Source of the DNA: Methanobacteriaceae archaeon
Lineage (GTDB): Archaea; Methanobacteriota; Methanobacteria; Methanobacteriales; Methanobacteriaceae
NCBI GenBank assembly: GCA_900766745.1
Contig: CAAFWR010000047.1
Location: 1 to 24,389 of the forward strand
DNA: 24,389 bases
Direction: 5' to 3'
The notes under the pieces are model-generated. The model was given only the letters and a program-made list of their open reading frames with translations. It was not told the origin of the DNA and ran no database searches. Of this stretch, positions 5,775 to 24,389 are shown in pieces (within the stretch, counting starts at the first letter, position 1; every line of letters starts with the position of its first letter). The translations under genes and the position numbers were made by a program.

Positions 5775-6062
5775 TTAGTTCTGATTTGATACTTTATTTA
5801 AAGCTTCTTGCTTGACTTGTTTTACGTCCTTGTCTAGATTCAAAAGGAACTTAACTTGTTCCAGGCAGATCTCAACATCTGCCAGTTCTTTTACAAGATT
5901 TTGTTCAGCTTCTTGTTTGGATACTTTCGTAATCTGACCAATTCCTCGACATCTGTTATATTTTGCGACAGCTTGAATCAGTTCAGCACATTCTTCCTGT
6001 ATTTGCCATAAAAGAACGTCTTTGCCGAGCTTTCTGGCGTTTTGTTTGGATTGTTCGGTCAT
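5775..6062 (-). CDS. MazG-like nucleotide pyrophosphohydrolase
   Basis: A 95-aa all-helical protein with the metal-binding pattern of the MazG/dUTPase-like superfamily: ExxE at residues 24-27 (EECAE) and ExxD at 59-62 (ELAD). Enzymes of this group hydrolyse NTPs or dNTPs to monophosphate and pyrophosphate. Single-domain forms of this size are common in phages and mobile elements. Its ATG overlaps the hsdS stop by four bases (ATGA), so it is translationally coupled to the restriction-modification genes. The substrate cannot be read from sequence. Confidence 0.8.
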   Translation of the reverse strand: MTEQSKQNARKLGKDVLLWQIQEECAELIQAVAKYNRCRGIGQITKVSKQEAEQNLVKELADVEICLEQVKFLLNLDKDVKQVKQEALNKVSNQN

Positions 6063-7267
6063 TTAACACCTTCTACAACTTCTTTTGTTTTCTTAATCAT
6101 TTCATCTTTCCAGTCCACAACATCTCGAATGACAACCTTTTCAGTTGTTTTGATGTATTTTTCCATGTATTCCCAGTCAATTTTACCAGACTCATTAATG
6201 GGGAGGCTGATTGACATTTCTTTAATACGTTCCCAACCTGCTTTAAAAGTCCAACTAAAATTCCCATGTAAGATTTTATTTATACATGCTGCTAAAAACA
6301 AGCCGACTTGTTTATTAGGAATTTCCATGTTTTTTAATTTAATAGCATATGCATCTTGTAACACAGCAAACTCATCGCTTTGATAGAACGTAACACCTGT
6401 ATTTGCACCATTAGCGGAAATACTCATTACGTTTTTTAAAATAGTTGGACACTGAATTCTTTTTGCATATCTTGCAAACCCCTGATTGTCAACGCCAGCA
6501 GTCAGTAATGGAATTGTATATTCCTCACTCTTATAGACTGGAAAATCATTTGCTTTTCCGCAAATCTTTTTTGTTTGGATTTTTTCAAATAATTCATCCA
6601 ATTTAAAACTTCTTGCTTCTTTCAAGCAGCCATTTACAGATGTCGAGTTTTGTAACGCCCCATCCGTTAATTTGGTAGCAAGAATCTCTTTATCTTCATC
6701 CGTCAATTCATAATCATTTAAACCTGCAGCAATTAGATACTGTTCAAGCTCCGCAATGCGTTCCTGTTCAAGCTCCGCAATGCGTTCCTGCATATAATCC
6801 CAGTCAATTTCCTCAGATTCTTTAACGGGGAGTTTGATTGACATCCCTTTAATACGTTCCCATCCAGCCTTATAAGTCCAACTAAAATTTCCATGTAAGA
6901 TTTTACTAATACATGATGCCAGAAATAAACCAACCTGTTCGTTTGGGATTTCAATATCTTTCAATTTAATAGCATATGCATCTTGCAAAACAGCAAATTC
7001 ATTATTTTGATAAAATGTAACGCCTGTATTTGCTCCATTAGCAGAAATACTAATTACATTTTTCAAAATAGTAGGGCATTGATTTCTCTTTGCATATCTT
7101 GCAAGTCCCTGATTATCAGCACCTGCAGTCAATAATGGAATTGTATATTCATCAGTCCTACAAGTCGGAAAATCGTTCGCTTTGCCAGAAATTTTTTCTG
7201 TCTTAATTTTTTCAAACAGTTCATCCAACTTAAACTCTTTCCAAGAGGAAGTATCAATACTGCTCAT
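6059..7267 (-). CDS. hsdS: HsdS-like specificity subunit with two near-identical TRDs
   Basis: A 402-aa DNA-specificity subunit. TRD1 (about residues 11-148) and TRD2 (about 221-358) are roughly 83% identical, including the shared block ISANGANTGVTFYQ. Between them lies a coiled-coil spacer with ERIAELEQ twice and a YELTDEDKEIL block. A final conserved helical region (about 365-402) follows. The ATG at 7267 is used because it lies one base after the stop of the upstream hsdS ORF. The open frame extends back through a G9 tract to 7306, so a one-base change fuses the two ORFs. Near-identical TRDs predict a symmetric two-part target, as known for type IIB enzymes such as AlfI. Stop overlaps the MazG-like start. 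Confidence 0.9.
   Translation of the reverse strand: MSSIDTSSWKEFKLDELFEKIKTEKISGKANDFPTCRTDEYTIPLLTAGADNQGLARYAKRNQCPTILKNVISISANGANTGVTFYQNNEFAVLQDAYAIKLKDIEIPNEQVGLFLASCISKILHGNFSWTYKAGWERIKGMSIKLPVKESEEIDWDYMQERIAELEQERIAELEQYLIAAGLNDYELTDEDKEILATKLTDGALQNSTSVNGCLKEARSFKLDELFEKIQTKKICGKANDFPVYKSEEYTIPLLTAGVDNQGFARYAKRIQCPTILKNVMSISANGANTGVTFYQSDEFAVLQDAYAIKLKNMEIPNKQVGLFLAACINKILHGNFSWTFKAGWERIKEMSISLPINESGKIDWEYMEKYIKTTEKVVIRDVVDWKDEMIKKTKEVVEGVK
6740..6787 (-). repeat. Two perfect 24-bp direct repeats in the HsdS spacer helix
   Basis: Units 6740-6763 and 6764-6787 are identical and encode an eight-residue ERIAELEQ-type unit twice. They lie in the coiled coil that sets the distance between the TRDs. 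In EcoR124 the number of short TAEL repeats at this position changes the spacer length of the DNA target (established). Copy number change here keeps the frame. Confidence 0.9.
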
Positions 7268-7268
7268 A

Positions 7269-7733
7269 TCAGTACCCCCCCCCGATAAGAATATCCAGAC
7301 GTTCAAAGCCTGGAATAAGGGTTGTTTTTACTGGAAGTAGAATACTCGTTTTATTTAAAGATTTCATTGTTGGATAGCTATTATAAGCATTACCGTATGA
7401 ACTCATTTCTTTATTGATAACAGCTTGGAAATATAAAAAGGTATCTTTAATCTTCGGAACTTTAGGCTTCAACAAAAACAAATTTTGACTTGCATACCAT
7501 TCTTTTTCTCGCCATAAGGCTACTGTTTCACCAACCTGTACAAGAGAAAACGAGTCTTTAGGATTGGGAGCAAAGTCGAGTTTATCAACTGTTCCTTGCA
7601 CGCCCCAATCCGTTGAAGTTCTGCCGATAAAATCATATGGAGCATTATTTTTAAATTTAATTTTATTCTTGTCGACACTTTTTGTTGTGCTTATATCAAA
7701 AAAGTCGTTTAACATGTATTCTTTCATTTTCAT
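7269..7733 (-). CDS. Single-TRD HsdS ORF that stops at a G9 tract
   Basis: A 154-aa ORF whose start lies 4 nt after the stop of the nuclease-methylase gene; AAGGAG lies inside that gene's end. It forms one complete TRD (KEYMLNDFFDI start, SYPTMKSLNKTSILLPV end). It differs in sequence from both TRDs of the next ORF. It ends ILIGGGY-stop where nine G residues put it out of frame with the downstream hsdS. With eight (or eleven) G residues it would run on as IGGGTDMSSIDTSSWKEF into the second ORF, giving a 557-aa protein with three TRDs. It may act as a half-subunit, or the locus may be phase-variable as shown for NgoAV in Neisseria. Confidence 0.85.
   Translation of the reverse strand: MKMKEYMLNDFFDISTTKSVDKNKIKFKNNAPYDFIGRTSTDWGVQGTVDKLDFAPNPKDSFSLVQVGETVALWREKEWYASQNLFLLKPKVPKIKDTFLYFQAVINKEMSSYGNAYNSYPTMKSLNKTSILLPVKTTLIPGFERLDILIGGGY
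7275..7283 (-). repeat. G9 homopolymer tract, candidate phase-variation switch
   Basis: Nine consecutive G residues on the coding strand between the two hsdS ORFs. It is the longest G or C run I see in this AT-rich window. At nine copies the first ORF ends at TGA 7271-7269. The run also sits 7 nt before ATG 7267 and could serve as a weak ribosome-binding stretch for the second ORF. Confidence 0.85.
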
Positions 7734-10184: not shown

Positions 10185-11291
10185 TTAATGATTGGATTTC
10201 TCATTATTGCATTTCTTACAAAGCATTTGACAGTTTTCTTGGACAGTCTTTCCACCATTTGACCACGGGATGATATGATTGCTTTGCATTTGTTCAAATT
10301 CAAAATGTTCTCCACAAATAGGACAGATTCCATTTTGTTTTTCATACGCTACAAGTTTCTGTGATTCGGAAAATGCACGCAAATTTAAATGCTTTTCAGC
10401 GCCATCGAATAAATACGAAACAACTCCTCGTTTGTTTTGAACATCTTCATCTTTCATCAGACGTTCGATAGTCTGTTCGAATTCGTTCGGATTGTATGTA
10501 TTTGAATGATATTTATTATATAATAAGCCCCATTCTTGGTTTGTAATGATTGTTTTTCTTTTTCTATATTCCGGAAAGAGCTTATGAACCCAGTTAATAA
10601 CATCCTGATAATACATCCAAAGGTCCATGCAGTCCGTATCATACTGGTGTTTGGACATGTATTCTTCGATAGATTCCAGACCATCGTAATCCACTTTCCA
10701 TGATAATACCTTTTCAAGAAGTTCCTGACGAATTGTTTTGTATTTTACTATATACTCGCCGATAGCAGCCCCTGCACAGTTTGTTGCCGAGAAATGCTTC
10801 TTTGCATCCAGAAGCCACGGACCTGTGTACATTGCATTGCGAAGTTCCTGATCAGAAAGTTTTACACCCGCAATATTGATTGTTTTGAACCAGCCAAGTT
10901 TTTCAGATTCTTCTCCTTCGCAGACATAAACCATCAAAGGATAGTCTAAAAAAGCTTCTCGTTTGTCTTTAGGTAATGACACGAATAAATTTCCGTTTTC
11001 ATCTGTTGTCTCTCCTGACAAAAATTTGCAGAAGGACAGAGTTCTTTGCTGTCCATCAAGGACTTCATATTCGCCCTGATTGTTTTTAACCCAGTACATG
11101 ACGTTTAATGGGAATCCTTTTTTGATTGTGTCGATAACAGCAAGCTGTTTTTCAGCGTCGTACACAAATTCACGTTGAAAAGGAGGACGAATGTCAAGCA
11201 TTCCCCCGTATCCTTTTACGCCGTTCTCACCATCATCGACAAAACCTTCGTAAACATCTCTTACTGTTACTTGAATTGTATCAATTTTCAT
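10185..11291 (-). CDS. DUF262 (GmrS/ParB-like) protein with C-terminal HNH nuclease
   Basis: A 368-aa protein. The start at 11291 is supported by AAGGAGGG upstream. The N-terminal DUF262 domain shows RPPFQREFVYD (about residues 35-45), an IDTIKKGFPLN helix and the DGQQR motif at 79-83. The middle is helical. The last 46 residues form an HNH/zinc domain with CPIC near residue 323, SNHIIPWSNGG and a second CKKC pair. DUF262 plus a nuclease domain is the architecture of GmrSD-type modification-dependent restriction and related phage-defence proteins (established). Which modification or phage it senses is unknown. Its start overlaps the end of the preceding 86-aa gene, so the two are translationally coupled. 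Confidence 0.88.
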   Translation of the reverse strand: MKIDTIQVTVRDVYEGFVDDGENGVKGYGGMLDIRPPFQREFVYDAEKQLAVIDTIKKGFPLNVMYWVKNNQGEYEVLDGQQRTLSFCKFLSGETTDENGNLFVSLPKDKREAFLDYPLMVYVCEGEESEKLGWFKTINIAGVKLSDQELRNAMYTGPWLLDAKKHFSATNCAGAAIGEYIVKYKTIRQELLEKVLSWKVDYDGLESIEEYMSKHQYDTDCMDLWMYYQDVINWVHKLFPEYRKRKTIITNQEWGLLYNKYHSNTYNPNEFEQTIERLMKDEDVQNKRGVVSYLFDGAEKHLNLRAFSESQKLVAYEKQNGICPICGEHFEFEQMQSNHIIPWSNGGKTVQENCQMLCKKCNNEKSNH

Positions 11292-11541
11292 CGTTTGTCC
11301 CTCCTTCATACTCGTACTTCGTCCAGTCATCTTTTCTGGAATATCGGTAATAAATTTCAGCTTTATTTTCTTTTAAAAAATCAATGAAATCCTTTGCAAC
11401 ATTATTCTGGATTATACATTGTCTTTTGTTCAGCCAATATGGGTCAAATTTATTTGGGATTTTAATGAACCATTTGTTAACTGAATAAGTTGAATAATTA
11501 GTATATGGTTTTACATTTATTAATATGCGTAGTTTTGTCAT
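11281..11541 (-). CDS. Small protein coupled to the DUF262-HNH gene
   Basis: An 86-aa basic, Tyr-rich protein with no recognisable domain. AGAGGCG lies before ATG 11541, 16 nt after the end of the methylase module array. Its final codons (EYEGGTNDEN) contain the ribosome-binding site and the start of the DUF262-HNH gene, with an 11-nt overlap. Translation of the nuclease therefore probably depends on it. It could be a partner or inhibitor of the nuclease; nothing in the sequence decides this. Confidence 0.65.
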   Translation of the reverse strand: MTKLRILINVKPYTNYSTYSVNKWFIKIPNKFDPYWLNKRQCIIQNNVAKDFIDFLKENKAEIYYRYSRKDDWTKYEYEGGTNDEN

Positions 11542-11556
11542 TTTCGCCTCTATTAT

Positions 11557-11820
11557 TTAAATCTTTTTTCTAAGAAATATTCTATGATACCCTACATTGG
11601 CAAACCCCTCATTATCAACCCAACAAACTTTTGATCTCCCTGGGGTACCACCTGTTCTAACTTTTCCTTTATTTACCAATTCCATGAATGAAGCAGAAGG
11701 CATAGAACCTTTAATTCCTGCAATCATCCATGAAGAAGAACAACCAATGATATCAAATTGTTTTGGGTTTAATTTGTCAATTATGGTTATTGGCACACCC
11801 ATAATTCCATTACAATATCT
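11557..11820 (-). other. C-terminal module E (probably the original 3' end)
   Basis: RYCNGIMGVPITIIDKLNP, FDIIGCSSSWMIAG, a Gly/Lys-rich middle with KVRTGGTPGRSKVC and an end YHRIFLRKKI-stop at 11557. It is the longest and most native-looking module and lacks the KIL-stop ending shared by A-D. It is reached with one more unit in tract 2 (589-aa protein). The frame is open upstream through module D to tract 2. Confidence 0.8.
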
Positions 11821-11980
11821 TTGAGATAAAGATTCTTGAATATTTTGACTTGCCATTAAGCATTGACCAATAGTTTGCTGACCGTCCTGACATTGTTGAC
11901 ATTGTGATAATTCTAAATTGTTCAGTACTCCATTTGTCAAGGAACGTGATTGGCACTCCGATGATTCCGTTACAATATCT
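11810..11980 (-). other. C-terminal module D
   Basis: RYCNGIIGVPITFLDKWST, then a short middle and LNGKSKYSRIFISKIL-stop at 11810. NGK-x-x-Y-x-RI is the usual family ending. It is out of frame now, and one unit fewer in tract 2 would bring it into frame, giving a 500-aa protein. Confidence 0.8.
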
Positions 11981-12179
11981 TGCGGACCAGAATTCTGAAG
12001 TACGGTGTAATCTGCTTGTTGCTTGTTGCTTGTTGCTTGTTGCTCAAGTGTGTCACACCTGTTGTATATGTCAAGTTTTTTTCATCATTACCTTTGCGGA
12101 ATTTCACAATTTCCAATTGTTCCGGATTGTACTTGTCTAATACAGTTATTGGAACACCGATGCAACCATTACAATATCT
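11970..12179 (-). other. C-terminal module C (contains heptamer tract 2; module now in frame)
   Basis: RYCNGCIGVPITVLDKYNP, a variable middle, an SNKQQAT repeat encoded by tract 2, and an end PYFRILVRKIL-stop at 11970. This is the module read at the repeat numbers seen here. It shares the 12-mer AAGATATTGTAA with module D at its end. Confidence 0.85.
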
Positions 12180-13319
12180 TTTGGATAAACAATCGTTTGT
12201 ATTTTCGATTGGTTCTAATGAGTGGTTGTGCAATTTTTGAGCTTGAGTGCCATAATCCGTTGCTAAATCCTGTTCCTTCTGATTCTGTAGCTCCAAATAG
12301 TTCGAATTGTTCTGGACTCCACTTATCGAGGAATGTGATTGGAGTTCCAATAACTCCGTTACAATATCTTTCTGATAAGGATACGACGGTAAATTGCTTT
12401 CCTTTGAATCGTGATATGATGTGCAACTCCAGCTGTTCTTGGTTCTTGGTTCTTGGTTCTTGGTTCTTGGTTCTTGGTTCTTGGTTCTTGGTTCTTGGTT
12501 CTTCACAGGGTGGCATTCCTCTGGAATGCTGTCAAGTGTTTTTTTACGATAGTCGTCGCCTTCTAGAATTTCAAACTGTTTCGAATTTGCTTTGTCAACA
12601 TAAGTAATAGGGACTCCTATCACCCCATTGCAATAAATCACATTTGCTAGTTCTGCCTCAATTTTTTCTTTATATCCTTCTGAATGATTATGTAGAGCTT
12701 GTCTTAGCTCTGTGTTTTTTGCAGGGATAACATAAATAAGTTCAGTATCATCCTTATGCTCTCTACGAACTTCTTCCCATTGAGTTTTGTCCAATGCTTC
12801 ATATTCTTCAGAATATAATCCCCAGCTTTCACAGTAATCACAGGGAATTTCAGCAACTTTGTCTACATTAATAGCATCGTAGTTGTCATAATGAGGATAT
12901 TCATCTGGGGAATATTTCTTCCAAAGAATCAAATCATCGTGGCGTTTAGGAATGTCTAAGTTTGTAAACCAACGTGTTAATCCTGAAAGTTTTTTGCTAA
13001 TTTCACCAGTTGGCGTCATGAATTCTTTAGGTTGCGTGTATCCAAGCCATAATTTATTATCTTTAATTAAAGGAAAAATTTCTTTGTATGTGATTGCGTT
13101 TTTGTTTGCAATGATTAAAAACTTCTTATTATATTCCATAAGCAAATTAATGAAAGGAATTGTTAGTGAAAACGGTTCGTTAGTAACGACTATATCAGCC
13201 TTTTTTAAGAGTTTTAAACATTCATATAGATTTCTCCTATAAAAGTACTTTTCCGTACAATTACAGTTAACCAATCTTCTATATGTCGCTTTGTATATGT
13301 AAAACATTAACAAAAGCAC
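11970..13319 (-). CDS. EcoRI-family adenine methyltransferase reading into alternative C-terminal modules
   Basis: The ORF as now in frame is 449 aa. Residues about 40-170 match EcoRI-type N6-adenine methylases: ADIVVTNEPFS, a KKFLIIANKNAITYKEIFPL block, LWLGY, RWFTNLD and HYDNYDAI. The catalytic NPPF is NEPF here. The family's N-terminal 100 or so residues are missing: the ORF begins only about 45 residues before NEPF, at GTG 13319 or ATG 13307, with no ribosome-binding site. After about residue 240 comes the IYCNGVIGVPIT recognition segment, then a NQEPRTK repeat from a 7-bp tract. About 80 residues that read module B out of frame follow, then module C ending FRILVRKIL. Activity is doubtful. 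A silent or donor locus is possible. Confidence 0.75.
   Translation of the reverse strand: MLLLMFYIYKATYRRLVNCNCTEKYFYRRNLYECLKLLKKADIVVTNEPFSLTIPFINLLMEYNKKFLIIANKNAITYKEIFPLIKDNKLWLGYTQPKEFMTPTGEISKKLSGLTRWFTNLDIPKRHDDLILWKKYSPDEYPHYDNYDAINVDKVAEIPCDYCESWGLYSEEYEALDKTQWEEVRREHKDDTELIYVIPAKNTELRQALHNHSEGYKEKIEAELANVIYCNGVIGVPITYVDKANSKQFEILEGDDYRKKTLDSIPEECHPVKNQEPRTKNQEPRTKNQEPRTKNSWSCTSYHDSKESNLPSYPYQKDIVTELLELQSHSSISGVQNNSNYLELQNQKEQDLATDYGTQAQKLHNHSLEPIENTNDCLSKRYCNGCIGVPITVLDKYNPEQLEIVKFRKGNDEKNLTYTTGVTHLSNKQQATSNKQITPYFRILVRKIL
12013..12043 (-). repeat. Heptamer tract 2, about 4.5 copies of a different 7-bp unit
   Basis: Four perfect copies of TTGTTGC preceded by TGC on the plus strand (GCAACAA on the coding strand), encoding SNKQQAT. 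It occupies the same relative place in module C as tract 1 does in module A. Confidence 0.9.
12169..12369 (-). other. C-terminal module B
   Basis: Complete alternative recognition module: RYCNGVIGTPITFLDKWSP, a variable middle with GFSNGLWHSSS, and an end YKRLFIQKIL-stop at 12169. Its first 12 bases are the end of module A in another frame. It is reached with one more unit in tract 1 (or two fewer), giving a 385-aa protein. A GAA-containing open frame upstream to 12516 supports entry from the tract. Confidence 0.8.
12359..12635 (-). other. C-terminal module A (contains heptamer tract 1)
   Basis: It begins YCNGVIGVPITYVDKANSKQFEI in the methylase frame and holds heptamer tract 1. In the -1-copy frame it ends AIYRRILIRKIL-stop at 12359, the expected end of an EcoRI-family methylase (Y-x-RILIR). 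In the present frame this end is not used. With one repeat unit fewer the protein would be 317 aa. Confidence 0.8.
12436..12503 (-). repeat. Heptamer tract 1, 9.7 copies of a 7-bp unit
   Basis: Nine full copies of TTCTTGG plus TTCTT on the plus strand (AAGAACC register on the coding strand), with no mismatch. The unit is not a multiple of three, so gain or loss of one copy moves the downstream frame by one. The tract itself is stop-free in every frame and always encodes NQEPRTK. Confidence 0.95.
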
Positions 13320-13365
13320 ACAAAAAACGACGTAAAAAACGTGGCATCATTAGAATTTATATGAT

Positions 13366-13371
13366 ATTATA
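13366..13371 (-). promoter_or_regulatory. Possible -10 element upstream of the methylase ORF
   Basis: TATAAT on the minus strand about 47 nt before GTG 13319, with no good -35. It could allow transcription of the shortened methylase gene. Weak evidence. Confidence 0.3.
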
Positions 13372-13492
13372 TGGGTGTAAAAAAGATACATATATTGTAC
13401 AGACTATGTATAAGAAAGATTGATTTAAACCCCATAACATACAGTGGATAGGCTATCAACCTTTGCTATATATGACTTACACTATATATATC

Positions 13493-13587: not shown

Positions 13588-15174
13588 ATGGCACAACACA
13601 CAACAGAAACAGTAAAAGGATATAGAATCCATTATTTCGAAAGTGCAGAAGCAGCTCAAATGTGGCTTAAAGAGACTTTTGGAAACGATGCAGATTTTGT
13701 TTCATATCTAAGTAAAAGCGACATCTTTGTGTGGGCTTCTCAAATTTGCGAACATTTCGATGGACAGGAATATGCTCAGCAGGAAATCGTACAGATTATT
13801 AAAGATAGAGATACGAAAACACTTCTAAAAATCAATCCTCAATATTTCCAGTATGTAAAGACGGACTTGACAAAAGAAGATACACAGTTCTTAGCAGAAA
13901 ACCTGTCAATTCTCCAAATGGAAAGATTCCCAAATAGAAGCTTCAGCCTGTTTGACGGCGATAATATTGAAACGATGCTTTATAGAGTGTCTAAAGAAAA
14001 ACGTCCAACATACTTTTATAAACTGTATACAATGAAAAGACAATATGCCGAATCAGATAAAACCGAGTTCGTTCGGGTCAAAGCCTTTACATTGACAGAC
14101 GCTCTTGAAAGAAAATTTAAATATATCAGCCGATACAAAGATCGTGTAAATCGTCTTGGCGGAACTAATAAAGCGGTTGACAGAAATCACGAATATGTTT
14201 CGATTAATGAAGTGTCAAAATACCTTTCGTTAAATATTCAATACATAACCCAGTTAGAAACCTTACATACAGACGGCCTTATGTATAAACACTTAGGAGC
14301 TCCTGAATATGAAAGAAGCAGGAAATACTTCCGTACAGAAAACCTGATTAAATACGTATCAGCCACATATAGACCAATGAATGATGAAATTGGAAATATA
14401 GAGGAAAGAAGATTTCCAAAAGAAGGCTTATTTAAACTTGAAGAACTATTCAAAATGTATGATTGCCATGAAACAATCACGGCAAGAAGTGTACTTTTTG
14501 CAAGGCGACAAAAAACAATTTCATACTTTCAAATCACAGACAAGGCAATTCGATATTCTAGAAAAGACTTTGAAGATTTCATGGAATTTAGAGCACAGAG
14601 AGATATTGGCTTTATCAAGAATGTAGTAAACCGTGACCTGATTCAGTTTCCAAAAGACGCAACAGATTCACAAAAAGACCTGATCATGAGACAATATATC
14701 TCCGAAGAAGAATGGACTGAAATGATGAACTTGGCAGCATCCAATAATATTCAAAACATCTACGAGTCATCAGCCAGAAAACTTCTTGTACAATACGCTA
14801 AAAAATACCGTAACCGTGAAGATGGTAAATTATATTTCTTAAAGAGCGACATTTCAAAAATGTTTAAGGAACATTATGGATATTTAGGTGAAGATGGAAA
14901 AATGAAATATCCTGTTCCATTCAATATTGATGCTATGCAAAGTGCTCATGAACAGAATGATGATTATAGAGGACGTATCTACACCGCTTCAGAATTGGCA
15001 GATTACTGGATGAAGCAGAATCCAGCACTGGCAAAAACATATATTATGATGACATTGAATCGTCTGACAAAAACAGGAAAAATTCCAGTTATCAAGATTA
15101 CGAAGGTATTCAAATACTATTACCTTCCACATATCGAAGATAACGAAACAATTATACATATGCTAAATAAATAA
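13588..15174 (+). CDS. Large hypothetical protein with helix-turn-helix-like segments
   Basis: A 528-aa soluble, charged protein with GAGGT upstream of ATG. It has no signal peptide or membrane helix. Two stretches look like winged-helix or MerR/excisionase-type DNA-binding units: YVSINEVSKYLSLNIQYI (about residues 202-220) and IYTASELADYWM with a following recognition-like helix (about 466-505). It has its own promoter and terminator and is transcribed divergently from the defence island. A role as a replication initiator, element regulator or partition-type protein is plausible from size and motifs, but I do not recognise the family. Confidence 0.7.
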   Translation: MAQHTTETVKGYRIHYFESAEAAQMWLKETFGNDADFVSYLSKSDIFVWASQICEHFDGQEYAQQEIVQIIKDRDTKTLLKINPQYFQYVKTDLTKEDTQFLAENLSILQMERFPNRSFSLFDGDNIETMLYRVSKEKRPTYFYKLYTMKRQYAESDKTEFVRVKAFTLTDALERKFKYISRYKDRVNRLGGTNKAVDRNHEYVSINEVSKYLSLNIQYITQLETLHTDGLMYKHLGAPEYERSRKYFRTENLIKYVSATYRPMNDEIGNIEERRFPKEGLFKLEELFKMYDCHETITARSVLFARRQKTISYFQITDKAIRYSRKDFEDFMEFRAQRDIGFIKNVVNRDLIQFPKDATDSQKDLIMRQYISEEEWTEMMNLAASNNIQNIYESSARKLLVQYAKKYRNREDGKLYFLKSDISKMFKEHYGYLGEDGKMKYPVPFNIDAMQSAHEQNDDYRGRIYTASELADYWMKQNPALAKTYIMMTLNRLTKTGKIPVIKITKVFKYYYLPHIEDNETIIHMLNK

Positions 15175-23120: not shown

Positions 23121-24389
23121 TCAATCGAAGCGATAATTAAAGGAGACGGGTGCTTTAGGTTTCAGTTTTCTTTTATTTTGCCGATTTCTGCGAACAGGAA
23201 GAATTTCTTTGGCAATAATATCACAAATATAAGATGGAACTTTTGCCTTTTTGAGATGCTCACGAATGATATGAAAACCTCGAACAAAGTTGAGCTGATA
23301 TTCATATTTACGTTTTCGTTTGGCAATATCAATTCCATTGGTAATACGACTACAGAAGTTATAAAGAATCATCTTTGCATAGATTTCCTGCTCAATCAGG
23401 TTTCGTTTCTTAGAATGCAGTGTATTTAAATCTAAATCATATTTTAGTTCACGATAACTAGTTTCAATTTCCCATCGTAAGTGATATAACTCTTTGATAT
23501 CCTGCATACTGAATTTATTTTCATCTAGATTCGTTACGATGCATTCGTATGTTTCATCTGTGATTTTAAAACGAACTACACGACATTCAAAATCATAGAA
23601 TGGTGTGTCACCAAAATAGTCAAATTGCTGATTTTGTGGCACAAATTTATAGATTTCAGGATGAGATTTAATTTCATTTGTCTGCTTTGTAGTCAGTGTT
23701 CGTTTGGCCCAAACGTCGAATTCTTCGTCTGGGAATGGTCCAAAACTGCGTAACATCCCAGTGGAATGAATATCCTTGACTCGAACTAGATATTTATTTC
23801 CAGATAAATGAATCTTCTCAAAGGAATTGATGGATTCATACCCTCTGTCTGCAATAAAGATAGCTTTGTCTCCTCTATAGCGTTCTACGATTTTATTAAG
23901 CGCCTCTCGTTCATCTTGTACAGCTTGCCCCTGAAGAATGACATCATCATAGGTATATTCTAAAATATCATAACTTGTATTCAGGTGAAAAGCAGAGAAC
24001 GGTTTATCTGAATTATTTGCTTTTCGGATTGTTGTTTTATTATCTTTGATTTCAGAGGTAATAGGCAATGTTGAACCATCCACAGCTAGAAGACGGTACC
24101 CTTTATATAATTTAGTTTTACGAGTTCTGTCGTTAAACAAATTGAATAAGGTATGAAAAGCATCTGGTTGAATCTTATCTCTTGACTGTATAAAAGAAGA
24201 TACACTTGGTGTATCTAGATTACAGCCAAACAATTTATTCAATTCATCTTTTAGTGAGCCTCCCTCTAAAAGCAGAACATTTATCAATGTGTTTCCAAAC
24301 AAATGTTTTCGTTTGCGAGTGAAGTCCTTATCTGGATTGATAACAAATAGTGAAGATGATTCATCCAATTGATGTATACATTGTTTTAA
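23121..24389 (-). CDS. IS4-family DDE transposase, 5' partial
   Basis: The frame is open to the window edge (…LKQCIHQLDESSSLF). By comparison with the left copy about 15 residues lie outside. DDE residues are present: LLAVDGS, FIADRGYES and YHLRWEIETSYRELK. The remainder is full length and intact, ending SFNYRFD like the left copy (SFNYRYD). It is clearly a paralogue, not an identical copy, so homologous recombination between the two would be inefficient. Confidence 0.93.
   Translation of the reverse strand, partial: LKQCIHQLDESSSLFVINPDKDFTRKRKHLFGNTLINVLLLEGGSLKDELNKLFGCNLDTPSVSSFIQSRDKIQPDAFHTLFNLFNDRTRKTKLYKGYRLLAVDGSTLPITSEIKDNKTTIRKANNSDKPFSAFHLNTSYDILEYTYDDVILQGQAVQDEREALNKIVERYRGDKAIFIADRGYESINSFEKIHLSGNKYLVRVKDIHSTGMLRSFGPFPDEEFDVWAKRTLTTKQTNEIKSHPEIYKFVPQNQQFDYFGDTPFYDFECRVVRFKITDETYECIVTNLDENKFSMQDIKELYHLRWEIETSYRELKYDLDLNTLHSKKRNLIEQEIYAKMILYNFCSRITNGIDIAKRKRKYEYQLNFVRGFHIIREHLKKAKVPSYICDIIAKEILPVRRNRQNKRKLKPKAPVSFNYRFD

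Follow-up and report, generated by a model that had tools for sequence, protein, structure and literature searches.

Two heptanucleotide tracts as probable frame-based selectors among five tandem C-terminal modules of an EcoRI-type methylase gene

Positions 1 to 24,389 of the contig CAAFWR010000047.1 of a Methanobacteriaceae archaeon (GenBank assembly GCA_900766745.1), hereafter called the window, carry part of an EcoRI-type adenine methylase gene in which the catalytic part is followed by a tandem array of five putative alternative C-terminal modules. Repeat slippage quite probably picks the module that ends the methylase, and hence likely the DNA site that is methylated. Two 7-bp tracts, one in module 1 and one in module 3, would set the reading frame by losing or gaining units, and the frame would decide which module is terminal and thereby likely the target site. 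From the first tract, translation would end in module 1, end in module 2, or pass through an open alternative frame to module 3, where the second tract would repeat the choice among modules 3, 4 and 5. A neighbouring DUF262-HNH nuclease would follow the specificity of the methylase or its methylation.

The modules, the tracts, the open frames and the fixed overlaps between stops and starts can be read directly in the window. Three-frame translation and coordinates displayed five EcoRI-methylase C-terminal modules in tandem on the minus strand between 11557 and 13319, each starting with IYCNG or RYCNG followed by GVPIT or GTPIT and ending with Y-x-R-hydrophobic and a stop codon (Table 1). Module ends fell in frames 1, 0, 2, 1 and 0 from module 1 to module 5, reproducing the original prediction (modules A 1, B 0, C 2, D 1, E 0), which had been made from the letters of this DNA. 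The same prediction placed two 7-bp tracts ahead of three-way forks, and after both tracts all three frames were indeed open, each ending in Y-x-R-hydrophobic. The frames following tract 1 led to module 1, to module 2, or through both in an open alternative frame into module 3, and those following tract 2 led to module 3, 4 or 5. As it stands, the window sequence holds an open frame of 449 amino acids (aa) from 13319 to the end of module 3, and single-unit changes of the tracts yielded products of exactly 317, 385, 449, 500 and 589 aa, the sizes predicted. The stop of one module sat within the first codons of the next, with an identical 11-nt overlap at four of four junctions. The sequence common to all four, AAGATATTGTAA(T/C)GG, read K-I-L-stop in one frame and R-Y-C-N-G in the next, so the frames cycle because this overlap is fixed and not through chance module lengths. 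Both tracts lie in coding frame with a unit that is not a multiple of 3, as in methylases that are phase-variable through simple sequence repeats, and at the sequence level the tract frame sets which putative recognition part is translated, as in the NgoAV system discussed below.

Table 1. Features of the methylase locus and its partner nuclease (window coordinates)
Feature	Position	Strand	Remarks
Open frame, not methylase-like	13224..13319	-	About 144 N-terminal codons of relatives missing
Catalytic part, EcoRI-type adenine methylase (PF13651)	12639..13223	-	TNEPFSL motif at 13164-13184
Module 1	12359..12638	-	IYCNGVIGVPIT ... YRRILIRKIL stop; holds tract 1
Tract 1	12435..12503	-	7-bp unit AAGAACC, 9.9 copies, 100% match; within module 1
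Module 2	12169..12369	-	RYCNGVIGTPIT ... YKRLFIQKIL stop; first half also open in the frame leading to module 3
Module 3	11970..12179	-	RYCNGCIGVPIT ... YFRILVRKIL stop; holds tract 2; in-frame module of the window sequence
Tract 2	12013..12044	-	7-bp unit AGCAACA, 4.6 copies, 100% match; within module 3
Module 4	11810..11980	-	RYCNGIIGVPIT ... YSRIFISKIL stop; first half also open in the frame leading to module 5
Module 5	11557..11820	-	RYCNGIMGVPIT ... YHRIFLRKKI stop
Small open frame, 86 aa	11281..11541	-	Between methylase array and nuclease; from the list of open reading frames only
DUF262-HNH nuclease	10185..11330	-	Pfam GmrSD_N and HNH; PADLOC REase_II PDLC03418, residues 14-380, 419.9 bits

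Relatives share this layout. A genome search provided 79 loci (the best of 534 encoding a relative, a set biased towards the query), mostly from records titled metagenome-assembled genome (MAG), and 12 of the 79 carried a tract with at least two proper frames, i.e., frames ending in the Y-x-R-hydrophobic pattern. The original prediction had proposed a search for homologous loci with a 7-bp tract between methylase and tandem C-terminal copies; loci with this layout were found in other genomes, with other repeat units. In six loci (L025, L026, L027, L049, L059, L074), two additional modules in other frames lay behind a tract of 4- or 5-bp units, four (L016 on a viral contig, L028, L030, L063) had 2- or 5-bp tracts with one further module, and in three (L015, viral, L036 and L097) a tract inside the sole module led by its frames to alternative tails. 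One of the three frames stopped early in L025, L049, L015, L016 and L028. The genome loci were titled Clostridia, Clostridiales, Eubacteriales, Lachnospiraceae, Ruminococcaceae, Oscillospiraceae, Spirochaetaceae, Spirochaetales, Bacteroidia, Bacteroidaceae and Elusimicrobiales, together with the strain Alterileibacterium massiliense; the record of this named strain (Marseille-P3115) has the layout too, in the full-length three-way locus L059, whose tract unit is ACAG.

Among 129 distinct methylase loci, 34 carried 36 tracts, of which those of L029 and L042 reached the contig end. The 34 testable tracts opened three proper C-termini in 11 cases (nine loci and the window's two tracts), two in 7 and one in 16, the third frames of L132 and L156, near the end pattern by eye, being scored as non-matching. 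Unit lengths were 1 (18 tracts), 2 (7), 4 (6), 5 (3) and 7 (2), none a multiple of 3, and repeat periods in the relatives' proteins were mainly 2, 4, 5, 7 and 8 residues. When 81 tract-less loci were read from the same place (14 loci skipped), one proper frame was obtained in 71, none in 9, two in 1 and three in 0. The end pattern itself closed 474 of 47,184 stop-terminated stretches of at least 10 residues in 105 loci. With this background of 1.0% and 0/81 tract-less relatives with three proper frames, the triple-open ends of the window are more than chance.

Middle modules, which a longer product must cross, were open in the alternative frame in nine of nine cases (L025, L026, L027, L049, L059, L074, L156 and modules 2 and 4 of the window), against 35 of 110 control blocks from other loci (Fisher p = 7e-5). 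Modules 1, 3 and 5 of the window, which need no crossing, were closed in the alternative frame. Loci L106-L125 (and L155 in some comparisons) duplicate other loci and were left out here as well as from the nuclease and core comparisons below; L106-L125 were also left out of the alignment of modules to single-module tails.

DNA similarity searches with the whole window gave one short match, to a specificity gene in plasmids, and none among phages, while distant and protein searches gave 5 plasmid and 12 phage records, and 92 plasmid records with P0098, none of which covered 80% of the query. Scans of viral contigs yielded one relative with P0004 and one with P0098 (L156), and the close relative L024 is truncated at the end of its contig. 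A survey of one order added a second tract locus, L132. The heptamer was dropped as a marker of the methylase gene, three copies of AAGAACC occurring in at least 120 viral stretches. Two other arrangements were observed in relatives. In L156, an A11 run (L156:4912-4922) stands ahead of three tandem modules in three frames, a layout in which a homopolymer may act as selector. In L031, L039 and L095, whole EcoRI-type methylase genes are repeated in tandem, with three to seven module blocks per locus; most of the repeated genes have a G9-G10 run at the module start, and L031 and L095 also have a DUF262 gene downstream.

Two protein searches (best 120 of 7,973 and best 120 of 7,997 matches; 240 proteins compared) revealed near-identical proteins whose tails become unlike from the tract onward. 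Among the matches listed, six of six window frames following the tracts occurred in proteins of other samples, as ends or as continuations. The tract 1 frames were matched by P0001 (97%), by P0027 and P0037 (100% of 24) and by P0004 and P0005 (100% of 87), and the tract 2 frames by P0007 (95%), P0001 (100% of 66) and, over 13 residues only, P0114. Copies of the tract 1 unit, worked out by hand from peptides for the relatives, numbered 9.9 in the window and P0003, 7.9 in P0016, 4.9 in P0004, P0005, P0006, P0008 and P0026, and 3.9 in P0001, differing by whole units. In total, 253 pairs agreed at 98.5% identity or higher over at least 230 residues and then diverged. The point of divergence was a tract for 26 pairs with unlike tails and for 211 pairs with the same tail, and 16 pairs diverged without a tract. 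The 26 pairs formed 10 groups, reduced to 10 pairs in 8 groups once two groups of PF01420 fusions, possible false joins, were left out of the same-allele count. P0003 and P0026 were identical over 407 residues, lay five whole 7-bp units apart and then continued in different frames; P0143 and P0154 were identical over 360 residues, and their tails corresponded to different frames of one locus, L030, which is probably the same record as P0143. Unlike tails were traced to different frames of known DNA in two cases, and in the remaining groups the unlikeness of the tails points to a different frame. Tract-length differences between near-identical alleles were thus obtained in relatives only (P0003/P0026 and others), as deduced from peptides. 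The fusions (P0132, P0133, P0173, P0174, P0178) join a methylase front, a TDRQ tract and a Type I specificity domain (PF01420); they may be genuine or may result from assembly errors at shared tracts.

Genes of this methylase family are usually accompanied by one for a DUF262-HNH nuclease. In the window, a same-strand nuclease matching REase_II lies beside the methylase, as in Type II restriction-modification pairs. Of 79 genome loci, 67 had a DUF262 motif no more than 1.7 kb beyond the methylase, 5 had none and 7 were cut or untestable. The corresponding figures were 11 with the motif, 10 without and 3 cut for 24 viral loci, and 7, 2 and 12 for 21 survey loci. Across 72 loci, nuclease identity correlated with that of the methylase's catalytic part (rho 0.53) and barely with that of the module core (rho 0.12; 2,556 non-independent pairs). 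In 58 pairs with nucleases at least 70% alike, module cores were below 30% in 42 and at least 60% in 12, shuffled cores having a mean of 14.5% and a 95th percentile of 25%; nucleases of L062 and L070 were 99% alike, with cores 25% alike. These values replaced a first comparison whose identity measure inflated short modules (modules below 40% in 7 of 73 nuclease pairs at least 70% alike). Because the nuclease hardly follows the module in relatives, its specificity probably derives from the methylase or from methylation, so that a module switch could be survived. Searching solved structures by sequence gave weak HNH matches for the nuclease and none for the methylase P0027.

All five modules aligned to single-module tails at 39-66%, conserved ends included. 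With the conserved ends removed, the cores of modules 2 and 3 still matched those of tract-less single-module relatives far above shuffles, so that an initial statement giving every module an ordinary counterpart was cut back to these two. A structure model of the single-module protein of L126 had a predicted local distance difference test score (pLDDT) of 87.5, and its residues about 12-253 match methyltransferase folds. Foldseek against the PDB gave nothing at E <= 0.001; a second look listed methyltransferase folds, residues outside 12-253 being barely tested.

The window copy of the gene is truncated at its 5' end, a point overlooked in the original prediction. The 449-aa frame matched PF13651 with 231.5 bits in three stretches, the best covering profile positions 131-299 of 345; this was its sole Pfam match, and it does not qualify as a Type I HsdS. 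An N-P-P-F-like catalytic motif, TNEPFSL, and five C-terminal GVPIT...Y-x-R blocks are present, and NEPF likewise occurs in full-length relatives. Similarity to the N-terminal parts of 11 relatives (tblastn, first 175 residues) began at 13220-13232, equivalent to residue 145 of P0004 and P0005. The CNCDDP motif, invariant in 40 aligned relatives, was not found in the window copy, where a bare CNC triplet is present. Relatives such as P0004 hold the full PF13651 catalytic domain and the window copy does not; the product sizes given above therefore count from a GTG in unrelated sequence. Intact full-length relatives carry the same modules. The proposal that slippage selects among modules was accordingly upheld for the layout, by the relatives and the diverging near-identical proteins, and not for functional proteins made from the window copy, whose N-terminal part is missing.

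Several observations weigh against slippage as the selector of recognition modules. Lacking its N-terminal part, the window copy probably has no activity or is a remnant. The cores of modules 1, 4 and 5 matched none of 90 tract-less cores above shuffles, and these modules share with tract-less relatives only the conserved module frame; with three of five cores in this situation, our confidence was slightly lowered. The model of P0005 was poor in its C-terminal part, with pLDDT mostly below 50, and alternative-frame linkers may accordingly be unstructured or harmful. Nine of 21 other blocks in array loci were open in the alternative frame too, the end pattern and the set of middle modules were picked after the layout had been seen, and the loci were found with the window protein. 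Sixteen of the 34 tracts were homopolymer runs with one proper frame (L031, L039, L054, L095), three of these four loci holding tandem whole methylase genes. Most relatives were ordinary: in the survey of one order, 26 of 392 genomes scored above the cut-off and one had a separate C-terminal match. Unit counts of relatives come from peptides, and assemblers can shorten repeats. Finally, that alleles differ by slippage in the cell and within populations, and that a module is a target recognition domain with a specificity of its own, we infer from sequence comparison, as we do a change of methylation with the module.

The array could instead be a silent store of modules, or a decaying remnant, whose modules reach an active gene by recombination and not by frame choice. 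The absent N-terminal part would suit this explanation, as would the 65-73% DNA identity that modules 2-5 share with one of them over 97 nt and the different module content behind nearly the same front (e.g., P0149 vs P0157). In a remnant, however, one would hardly expect all three frames to stay open after both tracts, or an alternative frame to be open exactly in modules 2 and 4; just three inverted pairs (17-19 nt, 84-89%) were found in 11400-13400, neighbouring open reading frames being partly scanned for families; and full-length relatives reach the same modules by frame. We therefore regard a store or remnant as unlikely in place of frame choice, and new arrays may well arise by recombination in addition to slippage.

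An ordinary on/off phase-variation device, with one working frame and with downstream modules as duplication relics, would account for the homopolymer tracts with a single proper frame and for L016 and L028, in which one frame stops at once or after six residues. It would leave unexplained that 11 of the 34 testable tracts kept three proper C-termini and that the alternative tails occur in proteins of other samples, and it is improbable. Little probability is likewise given to assembly or sequencing artefacts at repeats as the source of the length differences between alleles: differences consisted of whole 7-bp units wherever they were worked out, openness of three frames does not depend on a correct tract length, and the record of a named strain, L059, has the layout as well, even though most genome loci are titled MAG and the PF01420 fusions behind the same TDRQ tract (P0132, P0133, P0173, P0174, P0178) may be false joins. 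Ribosomal frameshifting at the tract, with all products made together and the DNA unchanged, could be served by the overlapping stop/start geometry and is nonetheless very improbable, as near-identical proteins differ at the tract itself and the tract units vary in sequence and length with, by eye, no shared slippery signal.

Frame choice by slippage among C-terminal modules resembles several known systems. In the Type I system NgoAV of Neisseria gonorrhoeae, slippage of a poly-G in hsdS alters specificity two-way; the tract is likewise in coding sequence, and the extent to which the recognition part is translated, and with it the specificity, depends on the frame (PMC9577141). NgoAV differs by its separate HsdS subunit, its truncated versus fused protein, its two specificities and its homopolymer (PMC9577141), whereas the window gene encodes a one-polypeptide methylase and the present systems have three or five alternative C-termini. 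In the Helicobacter pylori Type IIG system JHP1272 / HP1353-HP1354, frameshift repair alters the recognised site, and one gene holds two tracts; the first is on/off and the second two-way, and tandem three-frame modules are not described in the available part of the paper (PMC3936762). Type III mod phasevarions share a methylase gene with slippage of unit number, but they are on/off and the frame does not choose a recognition domain (PMC5149525). Recombining Type I hsdS genes of the SpnIII type also have several alternative recognition domains with one in use, the choice being made by inverted-repeat recombination (PMC5149525, PMC7394358), whereas the window has three short imperfect inverted pairs. 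The PADLOC models for PF13651 and DUF262-HNH proteins (MTase_II, PDLC03297; REase_II, PDLC03418) describe the same gene pair, whose order is shared by 67 of 79 genome loci; 67 of these 79 loci differ from the present layout in having no tract with at least two proper frames.

The claim that frame-driven selection of recognition domains is an undescribed layout was too broad, since a two-way change of specificity driven by slippage is known for NgoAV (PMC9577141) and JHP1272 (PMC3936762). The literature searched, which left most subscription journals and bioRxiv uncovered, yielded no description of a multi-way choice of recognition modules by frame, nor of repeat tracts in EcoRI-type methylases. 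New here are the three- and five-way selectors, the dual-coded middle modules and the DUF262-HNH nuclease that hardly follows the module. A wider proposal, for which the odds seem slightly unfavourable and which we put forward tentatively, is that EcoRI-type methylase and DUF262-HNH pairs in several bacterial phyla form a widespread and undescribed class of self-retargeting restriction-modification systems, in which a repeat tract would serve as three-position selector of recognition modules, middle modules would be dual-coded, chained tracts would give five positions, and one nuclease would borrow the current specificity of the methylase.

Other features of the window were recorded. A specificity-type gene splits at a G9 run (coding strand, 7275-7283) into reading frames of 154 aa (7269-7733) and 415 aa (6059-7306), and a suitable length change in the run would join both in one frame, as in NgoAV. 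The same specificity frame contains 24-bp direct repeats (6729-6790; protein ELEQERIA). Similar transposase-like genes lie in opposite orientation near both window ends (34-1359 and 23121-24368), the former matching DDE_Tnp_1 and the latter alike by eye. Divergent from the methylase, a 528-aa open frame (13588-15174) had no Pfam or NCBIfam match.

If frame choice by slippage operates as proposed, one gene would hold three to five DNA specificities, with a chance draw at each repeat slip, and a change of specificity would need neither recombinase nor donor genes. This would be a compact route to varied restriction against phages, and several methylation-dependent gene programmes could run in one clone. 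The response of a restriction nuclease to a change of target by its methylase would become testable, and the modules would provide a natural set of interchangeable recognition parts for EcoRI-type enzymes.

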